From positions 53,603 through 117,602 of the forward strand of contig JALHRQ010000011.1 in NCBI GenBank assembly GCA_022841375.1: a DNA stretch of 64,000 nt. Reading direction: 5' to 3'. The DNA comes from Burkholderiales bacterium (GTDB taxonomy: Bacteria; Pseudomonadota; Gammaproteobacteria; Burkholderiales; SG8-41). The translations under genes were made by a program, and so were the position numbers. Under the pieces are notes generated by a model. That model did no database searches. It worked only from the letters and a program-made list of their open reading frames with translations, and was not told where the DNA came from. Numbering within the stretch: position 1 is the first letter of the stretch; the number at the start of each line of letters is the position of its first letter. This document shows, one piece after another, positions 6,014 through 14,079 of this stretch.

Positions 6014-6193
6014 GCAGCGAACTTCATCACCGCAACGCTGTCATGGACATGCACCGGCTTGAACGGTGCGTCCGCGCCGAAACCGGTAGAATCAATAATC
6101 GTTTTGCAGGTCGTGCGCAGCTTCAGCGGCATCCGCGCCTGCACTTCCCCCCTAACTCCCCAGTCGCATCACCCGCGATCACCGATTGCACGC

Positions 6194-9100
6194 ATGGATA
6201 TTCCAGAGCACGAACGTGAACGCATCGTCATCCGCGGCGCACGCCAGAACAACCTGAAGAACCTGTCACTGGATGTGCCGCTCAACGAACTGGTAGTGGT
6301 CACCGGCGTTTCGGGAAGCGGCAAATCGTCTCTGGTGTTCGACACGCTGTACGCCGAAGGCCAGCGTCGTTACGTTGAGACCTTCTCGCCGTACGCACGG
6401 CAGTTTCTTGACCGCCAGGATCGGCCGCAGGTCGATTCCATAGAGGGCATCCCGCCGGCCATCGCCATCGACCAGGTCAATCCGGTGCGCACCTCGCGCT
6501 CGACCGTGGGCACGATGACCGAACTCAACGATCACCTGAAGCTGCTGTTCGCTCGCGCGGCGCACCTGCACTGCAAGGGCTGCGGCACGCAGGTGTCGCG
6601 CGATACGCCGCAGACCATTTTCGACGCGTTGAAAGCGCGCGCGCAGGCCGCGGGCGATCCGCGGCTGGCAATTGCGTTTCCGGTGCCGGTGCCGGCGAAT
6701 TTCAAAGCCGATGAAGTCAAGACCTTGCTCGGTGTGCAGGGTTACACCCGCTTTTTGAGTGAAGAAAAAACCGGCTTTGAAGTGATTCAGGACCGGTTGC
6801 GCATGGCCAATGCCGAACGCAGCCGGGTAGTCGAAGCGCTGGAAGCCGCATTAAAAGTCGGCCAGGGCCGCATCAATGTGCACGTGCTGGAAGCTGACGA
6901 TGCCAACGCCAGCAGCGGCACGGTATGGAAGTATTCCGCTGATCTGCATTGCGCTGAATGCGACATCCATTACGCCGAACCCAATCCCAGCCTGTTTTCA
7001 TTCAATTCGCCGATGGGCGCCTGCGACACCTGCCGCGGTTTTGGCCGGGTGGTCGGCCTCGACTTCGGGCTGGTGGTGCCGGATGAATCGAAATCGCTGC
7101 GTGACGGTGCGGTCAAGCCGTGGCAGACGCCATCAAACAAGGAGTGTCAAGACGACCTGATGAAATACGCGCGGCTGCGCGGCATTCCGGTCGACAAGCC
7201 GTGGCGCGAATTGTCGGTGAAGGAAAAGCGCTGGGTGCTCGACGGCGAACCGGAATGGGAAAACTGGCGCAAATCGTGGCCGGGCATCTGGTATGGCGTG
7301 GCGCGCTTTTTCAAATGGCTGGAAACCAAGTCGTACAAAATGCATGTGCGCGTGCTGCTGTCCAAGTATCGCGCCTATACCGAATGCACCACCTGCGGCG
7401 GCGCGCGCCTTAAAACCGACGCGCTGCTGTGGCGTATCGGCACTGCGGAAAACGCCGAGACCGCGCTGGGTCAGGGCGAGCACCGGCGTACGCGTTACAT
7501 GCCGCATGGCGTGAAGTTCAGCGATGCACAGCTCAACACGCTGCCCGGCCTGACCGTTCATGACGTAATGTTGCTGCCGCTGGAGCGCACTAAAACACTG
7601 TTTGATGCACTGACACTGCCGGCGCCGCTGGATGAGGCCACCGACATGCTGCTCGGTGAAATCCGCACGCGGCTCGCCTACCTGAATCAGGTCGGCCTCG
7701 GCTACCTGACGCTGGACCGCCAGTCGCGCACCTTGTCCGGCGGCGAAGTGCAGCGGATCAACCTGACCACCGCCTTGGGCACGTCGCTGGTAAATACGCT
7801 GTTTGTGCTCGACGAACCGTCGATCGGCCTGCATCCGCGTGACATGGGCCGGGTGATCGGCGTCATGCACAAGCTGCGCGACGCCGGCAATTCGCTGGTG
7901 GTGGTCGAACATGATCCGCAGATAATGCTCGCCGCCGACCGGCTGCTCGATATCGGCCCGGGGCCGGGCTCGAAAGGCGGCGAAATCGTCGCCTTCGATA
8001 CCCCGGCACAGCTGATGAAGTCCAGGAATTCTGTTACCGGCCGTTATCTCGCCGGTGAACTGAGCGCATCGGAAGCGCGCATGGTCAAGGCGCCAGCGAC
8101 CAAGTCGCCGCATATCCGCATCCGCGGCGCGACCGAACACAATCTGAAAAACGTCGATGCCGATTTTCCGCTGGAGCGGCTGGTGTGTATCACCGGCGTC
8201 TCCGGGTCGGGCAAATCAACGCTGGTGCAGGATGTGTTGTACGCGGCACTGCGCAAGGCGCTGGGCCAGCCGACCGAAGCGCCGGGCAAACACGACAGCC
8301 TCTACGGCGTCGACCAGATCAGCGACGTGGTAATGGTCGATCAGTCATCGATCGGCCGCACCACACGCTCGAACCCGGCGAGTTATGTCGGCGCCTTCGA
8401 CACCATCCGCAGCCGTTTTTCGTCCGCACCGCTGGCGCAGTCGCGTGGTTACACCGCGGGCACCTTCAGTTTCAATTCCGGCACCGGCCGCTGCCCGACC
8501 TGCAGCGGCAACGGTTTCGAACACGTGGAAATGCAGTTCCTCTCCGATGTCTATCTGCGCTGCCCGGATTGCGACGGCCGGCGTTACCGCGCCGAGGTGC
8601 TGGAAATCACCATCGCCGGCAAATCAATCGCCGACGTGCTGGAACTGACCGTGGCCGATGCGCTGGCCTTTTTCAACCACGCCGCCGATATCGCGCGTGC
8701 GCTGCAACCGCTGGTGGATGTCGGTCTCGATTACCTGAAGCTGGGCCAGCCGGTGCCGACGCTGTCGGGCGGCGAAGCGCAGCGGCTCAAACTCGCGGGC
8801 TTTCTCGCCGAGGCCACGAGTGGCGGCCGCAATGCGCTGGGCGGCAAGGGCAAACTGTTCCTGTTCGACGAACCGACCACGGGGCTGCATTTCGACGACG
8901 TGCGCAAACTGCTCGGCGCCTTCCACAAGCTGCTGCTCGCCGGGCATTCGATCATTGTCATCGAACACAACCTGGATGTGATCCGCGCTTCGGACTGGAT
9001 CATTGATCTCGGCCCCGAGGGCGGCGACGCCGGCGGCATGATCGTCTGCACCGGAACGCCGGATGTCGTGTCTGAACACGCCACTTCGCACACCGCCAAG

Positions 9101-11848
9101 GCGCTGCGCGATTACGCCGCATCACTGGGCGCGCCGCCGGGGATACCCACAACGCAGCGCGCCGCAGCGCGGCACGGCAACTCAATCAGCGTCAGCCATG
9201 CCCGCGAACACAACCTCAAAAACATCAGCGTCGATATTCCGCGCGGCAAATTCACCGTCGTCACCGGCGTATCGGGCAGCGGCAAATCGACGCTGGCCTT
9301 CGACATTGTGTTTGCGGAAGGCCAGCGGCGTTATCTCGAATCGCTGAACGCCTATGCACGCCAGTTCGTACAGTCGGCGGCGCGGCCCGAAGTCGATGCG
9401 ATCTACGGCATCCCGCCAACCGTGGCGATTGAGCAGCGCACCAGCCGCGGCGGCCGCCGCAGCACGGTGGCGACACTGACCGAGATTTATCATTTCCTGC
9501 GCCTGCTGTATGTGAAGCTGGGCACGCAGTACTGCCCGGACTGCGATGTCGCTATCGAGCCACAGAGCATCGACCAGATCACCGCGCGCATCATGAAAGA
9601 GTGCCGCAACGACCGTATCGGGCTGCTCGCGCCGCTAGTGGTCAATCGCAAGGGTTATTACACCGACCTCGCCAAGTGGGCCGCGGGCAAGGGCCACACC
9701 CATCTCCGGGTCGACGGCGAATTCATTCCGACCTCACCGTGGCCGCGGCTGGCGCGATTCCAGGAACACAGCATCGAATTGCCGGTTGCCGACATTCGCG
9801 TCAAACCGGAAAACGAAGCAGCACTGCGCGCGGGCCTCGCCGCAGCTCTGGAACACGGCAAGGGCGTGGTGCATGTGCTGGGCGGCCTTGATACGCTGGC
9901 TGATGCGATGGCGAAAAAGGATGCACGTCGCATCAAGCTCAGCGAAACCGTTTATTCGGTGAAGCGCGCCTGTCCGTCGTGCAACAAAAGTTTTCCGGAA
10001 CTCGATCCTCGGTTGTTTTCATACAACTCCAAACACGGCTGGTGCGCGACCTGTTTCGGCACCGGGCTGTCGCTGGAAAAAGTGGATTGGGACGAAGAAC
10101 GCGAAAAAACCGGCACCGAAGAGCATGTGCTGGATTCGTGGCTGAACTGGCTGGAAGTCGACGAGCCCTGCCCGACCTGCAGCGGCAAACGACTGAACCC
10201 GACCGCGCTGGCGGTGCGTTACCGCAAACGTTCAATCGCCGAACTGGCGGCGCTGCCGGTGGCAAAACTGGCGCGCGAATTCACTGATGTGTCGTTCAGC
10301 GGTCGTGAAGCGGCGATTGCGCGCGACATCGTCAGCGAAATCCGCAGCCGGCTGAGCTTTCTCGATGAAGTCGGTCTTGGTTATCTGGCACTCGACCGCG
10401 CCGCGCCGACGCTGTCGGGTGGCGAAGCGCAGCGTATTCGCCTTGCCGCGCAATTGGGATCGAATCTGCGCGGCGTTGCCTACATCCTCGATGAACCAAC
10501 CATCGGCCTGCATCCGCGCGACAATCAAATCCTGCTCAACACGCTGGCCAAGCTGCAGACCAAGGGAAATACCCTCATCGTGGTCGAACACGATGAAGAC
10601 ACCATCCGTCGTGCAGACCATGTGATCGATCTCGGACCGGGTGCAGGACGGTTGGGGGGTTACGTGGTTGCTGCAGGCACCGCCGCCGAATTGCAGGCCA
10701 ATCCGCAATCGGTGACCGGCCGTCTGCTGGCGCAACCGCTGCGGCATCCGCTGTATCCGCCGCGCAAGGTCGATGCCAAAACGCCGTCGCTGATCGTGCG
10801 CGATGCCCAGCTGCACAACCTGCTGCGCGTTAACGCACGCGTGCCGCTGGGCCGGCTGACGGTGGTGACGGGGGTATCGGGTTCGGGCAAATCGACGCTG
10901 GCGCGCGACGTGCTGCACGCCAACCTTGTCCGACTGGTCAACAACAAAACAAAATCATCAATAAAAACAACAGGCTGCAAAGAGGTTGCGGGCTGGGACG
11001 CGGTGGGTCGCGTGCTTGAAGTCGACCAGACGCCCATCGGCAAGACGCCGCGCTCCTGTCCCGCGACCTATGTCGGTTTCTGGGACACCATCCGCCGTCT
11101 GTATGCCGAAGCGCCGGAAGCGCGCATGCGCGGTTACACCGCAAGCCGATTTTCGTTCAACACCAAGGGTGGCCGCTGCGAAGCCTGCGAAGGCCAGGGC
11201 GTGCTGAAAATCGAGATGAGTTTCCTGCCCGACGTGAAGGTCCCCTGCGACGTCTGCGGCGGCAAACGCTTCGACGCGGAAACCCTGTCGGTGAAGTTCA
11301 AGGACAAATCCATCGGCGACATTCTGGCGCTGAGCATCGACGAAGCCGTCGATTTTTTCGCCGCGCATCCGCAGATTCATCATGCTCTGCGTCTGCTGCA
11401 GGATGTCGGCCTGGGTTACCTGACACTGGGCCAGCAAAGCCCGACGCTGTCCGGCGGCGAAGCCCAGCGCATCAAGCTGGTCACCGAACTGGCCAAGGTG
11501 CGCAGCAACAGCGGCGAAGATGCCGCGGCGCGGCCGGGCCGCGCCGGCGCGCAACGCCACACGCTGTATGTGCTCGATGAACCGACGGTGGGCCTGCACA
11601 TGGCCGACGTGGAGAAACTGATCCATGTGCTGCACCGGCTGGTCGATGCCGGCAATTCGGTGGTGGTGATCGAACACAACCTCGACGTCATGGCCGAAGC
11701 CGACTGGATCATCGACCTCGGTCCGGAGGGCGGCGACGGCGGCGGACGCATTGTTGCCGAAGGGCCGCCGGCAGAAGTCGTCAAAAAAGCCGCGCGTTCA
11801 CACACCGCGCGCATCCTCGGCGAGTTCCTGCGCGAGCGCGGCGCATGA
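6194..11848 (+). CDS. uvrA: double-length UvrA excinuclease subunit (two UvrA units in tandem)
   Basis: The protein has 1884 residues, twice a normal UvrA (about 940). Four ABC ATPase modules are visible, each with Walker A GVSGSGKS (near residues 38, 666, 1024 and 1559) and an LSGGE signature (near 514, 857, 1409 and 1752). Zinc-finger CxxC pairs occur in both halves (for example CPTCSGNGF with CPDCDGRRY, and CEACEGQG with CDVCGGKRF). UvrA recognises damaged DNA and loads UvrB in nucleotide excision repair; here one chain could mimic the UvrA dimer. Long UvrA proteins of this kind are known in betaproteobacteria. The ATG at 6194 is chosen because homology starts at once ([19 protein letters not shown]). 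A short AT-rich, Lys/Asn/Thr-rich insert lies near residues 1582-1597. Confidence 0.95.
10955..10974 (-). repeat. copy of the TGTTTTTATT motif inside uvrA
   Basis: On the minus strand this stretch reads TGTTTTTATTGAT, the same 13 bases seen after two genes at 22187 and 55600. It lies in the AT-rich insert of the fourth ATPase module of uvrA, where the coding is Asn/Lys/Thr/Ser-rich. Confidence 0.5.
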
Positions 11849-12504
11849 ACCGTCGCACGTTACTCATCGCCCTGCTGCTGACCGCAGCATCGGCCTGGGC
11901 GCAAGCGCCGGAACGCGATCAGGCGCTGATTGCCGCCGCCGGCCGTGGCGACACCACCGCGGTTCAGCAGTCACTGAAAGAGGGCGCGTCGCTGCTGGCG
12001 CGCGATGGCGCAGGCCGTACCGCGCTGGTCGCGGCTGCCTACGGCAACCATGTCGACGCCGCGCGCGTTCTGCTGGAAGCCGGCGCCAGTCCCAATGTTC
12101 GTGACACTGTGGGACGCACCGCCTTCATGGTCGCCGCGGTTTACGGCCATCTCGAACTGTTGCGCCTGACACTGAAGCACGGCGCCGACATCCACACCCT
12201 GAACCAGTACGGCGGCACCGCGCTGATTCCGGCATCCCACTACGGCCATGTCGAGGTCGTGCGCGAACTGCTGAAGACCAAGATCAACGTCAACCACGTC
12301 AACCGACTCGGCTGGACCGCGCTGATCGAGGCAGTGATCCTCGGCGACGGCGAGGCCCGACACACCGAGATCGTGCGCCTGCTGCTGGCCCACGGCGCGG
12401 ATGCCGGCATCGCCGACCGCGACGGCGTGACGCCGCTGGCGCATGCGCGACGCCACGGCTACCGTGAAATCATCCGGCTGCTCGAAAAAACCGGCGCGCG
12501 CTGA
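11845..12504 (+). CDS. exported ankyrin-repeat protein
   Basis: A 219-residue protein with a signal peptide ([20 protein letters not shown]) followed by about five ankyrin repeats, seen as recurring units such as DGAGRTALVAAAYGNHVDAA, DTVGRTAFMVAAVYGHLELL, NQYGGTALIPASHYGHVEVV and DRDGVTPLAHARRHGYREII. Ankyrin repeats are protein-binding scaffolds, and export implies a periplasmic role; no partner can be named. The start overlaps the uvrA stop by four bases (ATGA), so translation is probably coupled to uvrA although a link to DNA repair is not expected for an exported protein. Confidence 0.9.
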   Translation: MNRRTLLIALLLTAASAWAQAPERDQALIAAAGRGDTTAVQQSLKEGASLLARDGAGRTALVAAAYGNHVDAARVLLEAGASPNVRDTVGRTAFMVAAVYGHLELLRLTLKHGADIHTLNQYGGTALIPASHYGHVEVVRELLKTKINVNHVNRLGWTALIEAVILGDGEARHTEIVRLLLAHGADAGIADRDGVTPLAHARRHGYREIIRLLEKTGAR

Positions 12505-12509
12505 GCCGG

Positions 12510-13118
12510 CTAGCTGCCGTGCTTGCCGACGCCGTGCTTCCCTATATTCCAGCCCAGTTTGACGAGGTGTTTTTCGCCGACTTCAACCGGTTCCTCCTCC
12601 AGCGGGGTCGCCATTGAATCGTTCCAGCGGTTGAGGAAACCGAACATCGCCACGCAACCGACGATTTCAACAATCTGGTTTTCGCTCCAGTGTTTAAGGG
12701 CGCGGTCCATCAGTTCGTCGCTCACATCGTTCGGCTGCGACGCCGCGGCCAGCGCCAGGTCCAGTGCAACGCGCTCGGCTTCGCTGAACAAGGGGCTGCT
12801 GCGGTATTCCCATACCGCTTCCATTTTTTGCTCGTCCACGCCCAGCCGGAGCGCCGCCCCGGCAGTGTGCGCCATTCAATAACTGCAGCCGTGCGCCTTG
12901 CTGGCAATGTGCGCGATCAGGCGCTTGAGGCTGACGGACACTTCACCTTCCGGATCCCAGACCGCAGCCGCCATGGCGGCCAGCGCCTTCACCAGCTTGG
13001 GTTTGCGCTGCAGGATCAGTACGCTGTTGGGCACAAAGCCCAGCGCTTTGAGATAAACCTTCCACGAATCCGCGAGCTCGGGAACAGCGTCGATCGGTAA
13101 CGGCTGCAGACGGGCCAT
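12510..13118 (-). CDS. AhpD-like/carboxymuconolactone decarboxylase family protein with in-frame TGA, probable selenoprotein (CxxU)
   Basis: The reading frame from the ATG at 13118 (AAGGAG seven bases upstream) meets TGA at 12878-12876 and continues in the same frame without further interruption to 12510, for 202 residues if TGA is read as an amino acid. The protein matches the carboxymuconolactone decarboxylase/AhpD-like family, with LIAHIASKAHGCSY before the TGA and MAHTAGAALRLGV after it, then VWEYRSSPLFSEAERVALDL and GFLNRWNDSMATPLEEEP. In this family the position is the second Cys of CxxCxxH, so the codon gives C78-S-Y-U81-M-A-H84. A hairpin with the geometry of a bacterial SECIS follows the TGA. 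Such proteins are thiol peroxidases or disulfide reductases. The alternatives are a nonsense mutation of TGC/TGT or a sequencing error; the exact placement on a redox Cys and the absence of other damage favour selenocysteine. Confidence 0.8.
12845..12863 (-). promoter_or_regulatory. SECIS-like hairpin downstream of the in-frame TGA
   Basis: In the mRNA sense, GCCGGG at 12863-12858 pairs with UCCGGC at 12850-12845 (five Watson-Crick pairs plus one G-U) around a 7-base loop GCGGCGC. Eighteen bases separate the UGA from the loop and the loop begins with G. Both features fit the published rules for bacterial SECIS elements (loop roughly 16-37 bases from UGA, a G in the first two loop positions). 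An outer CAC/GUG pairing can extend the stem. This is visual pairing, not a computed fold. Confidence 0.55.
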
Positions 13119-13148
13119 CAATGTTCTCCTTGGGTTTCAGGTTGGTCC

Positions 13149-13212: not shown

Positions 13213-14079
13213 GTGATCAGTCAAACTCTGCAGGCGCATACCAAAGACCTCGGTGACGGTTTTGAGGTGCGGCGTCTGTTGCCGGCCGCGACGCGACGCA
13301 CCATCGGTCCATTCATTTTTTTTGATCACATGGGTCCGGTGCGTTTCAATCCAGGCCAGGCCGTCGATGTGCGGCCGCATCCGCATATCGGGCTGGCCAC
13401 GGTGACTTACCTGTTCGAAGGCGCGCTGATGCACCGCGACAGCCTGGGTTTCGTGCAGCGCATTACACCCGGCGACGTCAACTGGATGACCGCGGGACAC
13501 GGCATTGTCCACTCCGAGCGCAGCCCCGACGACGAACGCAACACTGCACGCGGCCTGCACGGTATTCAGGTGTGGATTGGCCTGCCGCAAGCGGATGAAC
13601 AGACCGCGCCATCGTTCACTCACCACCCAAAAGCCACGCTGCCGCGGCTCACCCTTCCTGCTGCGAAACTGCGATTGATTGCCGGCAAGGGCTGGGGGCT
13701 GCGCGCACCGGTACAGACCTTTTCGCCGATGTTTTATGCAGCCATCGAAGCCGGCGGCGCCACGCAGTTTGATCTGCCCTCGGAATATGCCGAACGCGCG
13801 ATTTACGTGGTTGACGGCGATGTCAGCGTCGGCGGCATCAGCATTGTGCCGCGCACGGTCGCGATGTTTGCGCCGGACGTGCCGGTTACGGTCCATACCG
13901 GCGGCGCGGCGCGCATCATGGCCTTCGGTGGTGCGCCGCTGGACGGCGAACGCCATGTGTCGTGGAATTTTGTCGCCAGCAGCCGGGAACGGATTGATGA
14001 GGCGCGCACGCAATGGCGCGAACAACGTTTTCCGGGCGTTCCCGGGGAAACCGAATTCATTCCCCTGCCCGAGCGGTAA
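13213..14079 (+). CDS. pirin family protein
   Basis: A 288-residue bicupin protein. The N-terminal cupin has the pirin metal-binding signature RPHPHIGLATVTYLFEG and the second half GHGIVHSER, supplying the His, His, His and Glu ligands. The C-terminal cupin includes IYVVDGDVSVGG and ends ERIDEARTQWREQRFPGVPGE. Some bacterial pirins oxidise quercetin and others bind regulators, so the role here is open. The start is a GTG at 13213, the first start in frame with the family N-terminus. It is divergent from the AhpD-like gene, suggesting possible shared redox control. Confidence 0.9.
   Translation: MISQTLQAHTKDLGDGFEVRRLLPAATRRTIGPFIFFDHMGPVRFNPGQAVDVRPHPHIGLATVTYLFEGALMHRDSLGFVQRITPGDVNWMTAGHGIVHSERSPDDERNTARGLHGIQVWIGLPQADEQTAPSFTHHPKATLPRLTLPAAKLRLIAGKGWGLRAPVQTFSPMFYAAIEAGGATQFDLPSEYAERAIYVVDGDVSVGGISIVPRTVAMFAPDVPVTVHTGGAARIMAFGGAPLDGERHVSWNFVASSRERIDEARTQWREQRFPGVPGETEFIPLPER

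Follow-up and report, generated by a model that had tools for sequence, protein, structure and literature searches.

A predicted selenoprotein of the carboxymuconolactone decarboxylase/AhpD superfamily in a Burkholderiales genome, with the debrominase Bmp8 as closest solved structure

The 64,000-nucleotide stretch analysed here (the window; Burkholderiales bacterium, assembly GCA_022841375.1, contig JALHRQ010000011.1, positions 53,603 to 117,602) carries on its reverse strand a gene of the carboxymuconolactone decarboxylase (CMD)/AhpD superfamily whose frame, from 13118 to 12510, is interrupted once, by a TGA at 12878-12876 in the context HGCSY-TGA-MAHTAG. Comparative sequence analysis makes it very likely that the gene encodes a genuine selenoprotein, known in kind, with selenocysteine (Sec) at the TGA. 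The subfamily to which it belongs has a closest structure, a distribution and an operon of its own. The features of the gene are as follows.

12510..13118, reverse strand: predicted selenoprotein coding sequence of 202 residues with a CxxU motif, from the ATG at 13118 to the stop TAG at 12512-12510.
12876..12878, reverse strand: TGA codon 81, predicted selenocysteine (Sec81); TGA in 62 subfamily sequences.
12885..12887, reverse strand: codon of Cys78, the predicted partner of Sec81.
12867..12869, reverse strand: codon of His84, three residues past the Sec/Cys position in 62 of 62 Sec sequences.
12845..12863, reverse strand: hairpin resembling a bacterial selenocysteine insertion sequence (SECIS), with arms 12863-12856 and 12852-12845 and the loop GGC at 12855-12853.
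13126..13131, reverse strand: AAGGAG, by eye a likely ribosome-binding site, 7 bases ahead of the ATG.

When read through the TGA, the protein passes the Pfam gathering score of PF02627 (43.6 against 23 bits, E 3e-11), and in alignment the TGA falls on the second CxxC Cys, both in Bmp8 and in the best 120 of 5447 homologues. An earlier note on this DNA had described a frame open on either side of the TGA, with the TGA at the second Cys of a CxxC motif; both points hold, the TGA being codon 81 of a 202-codon frame that runs from ATG to TAG. All matches to NCBIfam models fell below their cut-offs: TIGR01926 was missed at 73.0 bits (cut-off 81.8 bits), the scores for NF053654, NF041238 and NF041537, all (seleno)protein models, lay far below, and four other models were also missed.

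Conservation of the codon was surveyed in a family set of 74 genomes, from which 101 sequences were extracted and, with identical proteins merged, 97 distinct ones retained; the residue table omits L122 (a partial match) and a second partial match in L079, and G020:C94 lies outside the set. A homologue at E <= 1e-20 was found in 52 of the 74 genomes, and at least one CxxU gene in 41. The motifs at the Sec column comprise 63 CxxU, 12 CxxS, 9 CxxC, 8 DxxC, 2 SxxS, 2 DxxT and 1 AxxS; all 63 CxxU are encoded by TGA, and neither TAA nor TAG stands at this column in any of the 97 proteins. All but one of the CxxU proteins (62 of 63) belong to the window subfamily; apart from the window protein itself these number 61 and share 54-98% identity with it (median 62%). 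Chance is excluded, since 62 different sequences hold TGA at the same codon. The remaining CxxU protein, L081:10958-12323 on the reverse strand, is a distant two-domain CMD frame (GCAY-TGA-IAH and GAPYS) and is perhaps another selenoprotein. A database search scored 7998 candidates, 5447 of them at E <= 1e-20, and the best 120 of these 5447 were all CxxC; because ordinary gene callers would cut Sec forms, this list is uninformative as to their number.

Five near relatives, 92-97% identical and each from its own separately deposited metagenome record (four of these titled Burkholderiales or beta-proteobacteria), share the TGA and have no further stop, four being full length and one ended by a contig edge. 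Sequencing error was rejected on this ground. The same TGA in related genomes had been proposed as a check, and further frame damage in close relatives as a possible refutation; the former was found and the latter was not. Ratios of nonsynonymous to synonymous substitution (dN/dS) against these relatives are 0.010-0.037 before the TGA and 0.013-0.049 after it, so both halves of the frame are under purifying selection at the sequence level. Locus L053, with a CMD protein sharing 96% identity with that of the window, is in a metagenome record (CAMAYE010000009.1) titled Bordetella parapertussis, a species label that seems doubtful.

The window genome, which is 99% complete at 4.1 Mb in 66 contigs, contains all of the Sec machinery whose presence was to be checked. 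A tRNA-Sec scores above its family cut-off, with the anticodon called as tca by ARAGORN; selB and selA lie on contig C3 within 6 kb of it; and selD, on contig C15, itself holds a TGA in SHGGG-U-GCK. Under the same cut-offs, tRNA-Sec was found in 5, selB in 2, selA in 1 and selD in 2 of 14 control genomes. Two of the seven CMD matches in the genome contain TGA, namely the window gene and a paralogue (L058, G000:C8:167302-167886) which is likewise CxxU, is 60% identical to the window protein and has its own hairpin. No internal stop occurs in the formate-dehydrogenase matches of this genome (0 of 24 and 0 of 20 rows for two models). As of 2006, PMC1794560 describes FdhA as the sole selenoprotein in those sequenced alpha- and betaproteobacteria that decode Sec. 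Since TGA is present in selD and in two CxxU genes and absent from the formate-dehydrogenase matches, Sec decoding in this genome may be kept largely for the CxxU enzyme, among the families searched (CMD, formate dehydrogenase, selD and PrdB-like).

A bacterial SECIS is a hairpin just after the TGA with a G first in its loop. The window hairpin agrees with this consensus in both position and loop, starting 12 nt past the TGA with a stem of 7-8 pairs and a loop that opens with G. The presence of such a hairpin had been correctly noted, with a distance to the loop of 18 that must be amended to 20 (8-bp stem, 3-nt loop GGC). In an alignment that omits the two distant CMD domains of L081, TGA genes keep 6.73 of 7 pairs, and genes with other motifs a mean of 2.0-3.2 of 7 (34 genes). 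Of the cells in 57 distinct sequences 96.7% are paired, a value that falls to 28-61% when the alignment is slid by 1-3 columns. Two-sided changes are seen in 3 of the 7 pairs, with one pair holding 13 of the 15 changed cells, and synonymous variation is at its minimum at codons 87-93, the region that holds most of the hairpin. Folding energy over 22 nt gave z -2.58 (2 of 200 shuffles as good); the evidence for the hairpin is comparative, single-sequence energy being weak evidence. The Rfam family Proteo-phage-1 matched near the site at chance level (18.4 bits against a cut-off of 42, E 0.59) and was rejected.

In both sequence and modelled fold, the closest solved protein is Bmp8 (31-33% identical), whose GCxYC..H motif recurs in the window protein with Sec in place of the second Cys. 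Motif counts over the 62 Sec sequences, which exclude the two distant CMD domains of L081, bear on the earlier assignment to an AhpD-like family. The AhpD relay comprises a Glu, 12 positions ahead of the first Cys, and a His four past the second (PMC3141380). The relay Glu position is occupied by Arg in 62 of 62 sequences; in all 62 the His stands at +3, followed at +4 by Thr, Asn or Ser. The assignment is therefore right at the level of the CMD/AhpD superfamily (PF02627), within which the window protein belongs to a Bmp8-like subfamily.

In relatives, some of the CxxU genes adjoin a second candidate selenoprotein gene. Its PrdB-like product, with the motif LTPV-U-PNC (UxxC), scores 102.5 bits against a PrdB cut-off of 300, and its matches to other NCBIfam models likewise all stay under their cut-offs. 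It was found in 48 of the 74 genomes (59 matches), with a single TGA in 57 of the 59 (the site was read in two). A CMD gene lies on the same strand within 200 bp of 11 of these matches, each in a different genome, the neighbour being CxxU in 10 cases and CxxC in 1; the CxxU operon loci are L067, L069, L071, L073, L074, L075, L076, L079, L100 and L102. The PrdB-like gene is flanked by CxxU genes on both sides in genomes G054 (gaps 52 and 72) and G051 (gaps 52 and 333); L067 and L079 are loci with this arrangement. CxxU-CxxU tandem pairs occur at L064 and L070, with 46 and 56 bases between the genes. In seven loci a gene for a TetR-type regulator is found within 100 bases upstream of the CMD gene, and none adjoins the window gene. 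At L073, L075, L076 and L123 a CxxC sister-clade CMD gene adjoins a radical-SAM gene that resembles those of arsenosugar biosynthesis.

The neighbours of the window gene itself are the following.

13213..14079, forward strand: pirin gene (PF02678/PF05726), divergent neighbour.
11845..12504, forward strand: ankyrin-repeat protein gene, convergent neighbour.

The divergent pairing of pirin and CMD genes recurs at 11 loci of the family set, the window included. Elsewhere in the window, positions 6059-11848 (forward strand) form a single frame of 1929 residues with two UvrA-type halves (two UvrA_inter stretches).

The distribution of Sec was followed on a quick tree of 119 proteins, built with the Sec column removed, 24 of the best 120 database homologues included and the CMD domains of L081 omitted. 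It requires 3 changes for Sec and 4 for Cys, which suggests that the two residues have replaced each other inside the subfamily, but support is low for many of its branches and the well-supported ones by themselves force only 1 and 2. The 14 rows with Ser fall together in a single group (support 100). This Ser clade (L081, L086, L090, L094, L096, L098, L107, L110, L111, L113, L114, L115, L116 and L117) belongs to the same subfamily, has Ser at the Sec position and has not kept the hairpin; L116 and L117 are without either Cys, and several of its loci adjoin genes that presumably encode tripartite-tricarboxylate binding proteins. An order-wide sample of 250 genomes yielded 16 with a match at E <= 1e-60, CxxU being read in families f1, f13 and f6. 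In a class sample, matches at E <= 1e-45 occur in 14 of 368 other genomes; the motif was read in 11 loci (L147-L157), all beyond the order, and is CxxC in each, and a TGA counted in L151 is the end stop of the gene, not a Sec codon.

The frame and its Bmp8-like motif, together with the conserved TGA, the Sec machinery genes, purifying selection on both halves and a hairpin that in TGA genes is kept, covaries and lowers synonymous freedom, are read directly from the sequences, and the last four make a selenoprotein very likely; none of the refuting observations looked for occurred, and the probable selenoprotein of the earlier note is thus supported. We favour, with a probability of about 0.78, a single TGA-interrupted frame in which Sec is inserted with the help of the hairpin, encoding a Bmp8-like enzyme of predicted fold in which a Cys-x-x-Sec pair would serve to reduce a small electrophilic substrate. 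UGA codon 81 would be decoded by SelB and tRNA-Sec, with the hairpin just behind it assisting. The selenol of Sec81 would then attack the electrophilic atom of the substrate, either a peroxide oxygen or, as in Bmp8, a halogen; Cys78 would resolve the product to a selenylsulfide, and thioredoxin or another thiol would reduce this again. In the operon forms the PrdB-like UxxC selenoprotein may, by analogy with GrdA and GrdB, exchange electrons or substrate with the CxxU protein, and the window genome would rely on the general thiol system.

Several observations weigh against this reading: (i) the window genome has no PrdB-like match at E <= 1e-60, so that such an operon cannot explain the window gene and such a partner is not needed there; (ii) selB is no guide to which genomes have CxxU, being found in 38 of 41 of these and in 29 of 33 others (Fisher p 0.69), and a selB match at E <= 1e-60 is missing from three CxxU genomes, one of them 99% complete; (iii) of the five covariation measures one, the count of pair types, is not above shuffles (491 of 500 reach the same); (iv) hairpin energy over 40 nt is not unusual (z -1.45, 18 of 200 shuffles as good), and no Rfam family scores above its cut-off at the hairpin; and (v) Sec81 may, by analogy, be the resolving residue instead of the nucleophile, because the ligand complex of Bmp8 was solved as a mutant of the first Cys.

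The strongest alternative is a selenoprotein that acts as an AhpD-type peroxidase or adaptor, reducing a peroxiredoxin such as AhpC. It is possible, though clearly less probable than the Bmp8-like small-molecule reductase: PF02627 membership, a helical fold the same as that of AhpD entries, and the name peroxidase-related enzyme given to many of the named Cys homologues (best 120 of 5447) speak for it, but Arg replaces the relay Glu in every Sec sequence, the His is at +3, and both sequence and fold place the protein clearly nearer to Bmp8. A reductive dehalogenase that works with selenium, chemically analogous to thyroid deiodinase but on the AhpD fold, seems unlikely. The closest solved structure is indeed a debrominase, solved also as C82A with tribromopyrrole bound, and Bmp8 dehalogenation is proposed to oxidise its cysteines to a disulfide with release of HBr (PMC5577590). 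However, identity to Bmp8 is only 31-33%, Bmp8 has also been described as a decarboxylase (PMC7918430), and no halogenase was recognised among annotated neighbours or, by eye, among cluster representatives, no search having been aimed at halogenases.

A fuller version of this idea is a shade less probable still: a Sec dehalogenase on the AhpD/Bmp8 fold as a separately arisen bacterial counterpart of the deiodinase, forming in some relatives a two- or three-selenoprotein machine with the PrdB-like UxxC reductase. A pseudogene, or two genes split by a nonsense mutation, would suit a TGA that is a stop in table 11 and the Cys at the site in the best 120 of 5447 homologues, but is rejected in view of five near relatives from separate deposits sharing the TGA, of its recurrence in 62 diverged sequences, of the low dN/dS past it (0.013-0.049) and of a hairpin found with TGA genes only. 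Insertion of a standard amino acid (Trp or Cys) at the TGA, with no selenium, would suit the Cys or Ser of homologues but has a negligible chance given the complete Sec machinery, a hairpin kept in TGA genes only, and TGA in just the two CxxU genes among the seven CMD matches of the genome.

Because genes like this one are likely to be annotated as broken or split, a common enzyme, with a CxxU copy in 41 of 74 family-set genomes, is easily missed. Its natural Sec, Cys and Ser versions within one subfamily provide a ready test of what selenium contributes, and the link to Bmp8 points to a concrete substrate class. In the available parts of the selenoprotein literature searched (including PMC1088965, PMC2398784, PMC1794560, PMC9312934 and PMC13188914) no description was found of a Bmp8-like Sec subfamily with its own structure link, distribution and operon; nor did searches find literature joining a selenoprotein with a debrominase, or treating selenoproteins or selenocysteine in Burkholderiales metagenomes.

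The CxxU form in this genomic context had been thought little described. The motif itself is not: published AhpD-like selenoproteins usually have CxxU, being reported from the Sargasso Sea in 2005, as 'AhpD-like 1' (COG2128) and 'AhpD-like 2' (pfam02627) of GOS, and in a TIGR01926 entry of a 2026 review. These share with the window subfamily the CMD/AhpD superfamily, Sec at the second CxxC position and a SECIS-like hairpin after the TGA; the window subfamily differs in its sub-cut-off TIGR01926 score, its Bmp8-type motif and, in relatives, its PrdB-like operon partner. Set against the published descriptions, as distinct from the sequences, it may be the same as GOS AhpD-like 1 or 2. Bmp8 (PDB 6ohi, 6ohj) differs from the window protein in having Cys at the Sec position and in sharing only about a third of its residues, and no bromopyrrole genes were recognised near the window gene. 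Mycobacterium tuberculosis AhpD and Pseudomonas aeruginosa PA0269 have a similar helical CMD fold with CxxC, but the AhpD relay Glu and His(+4) are missing from the window subfamily. Glycine reductase, in which GrdA is the CxxU and GrdB the UxxC protein (PMC13188914), offers the nearest likeness to the operon forms: in relatives of the window gene a CxxU selenoprotein gene adjoins a UxxC gene of GrdB/PrdB type, but the CxxU partner is a CMD protein in place of GrdA, and the PrdB-like protein is a sub-cut-off member of its kind.
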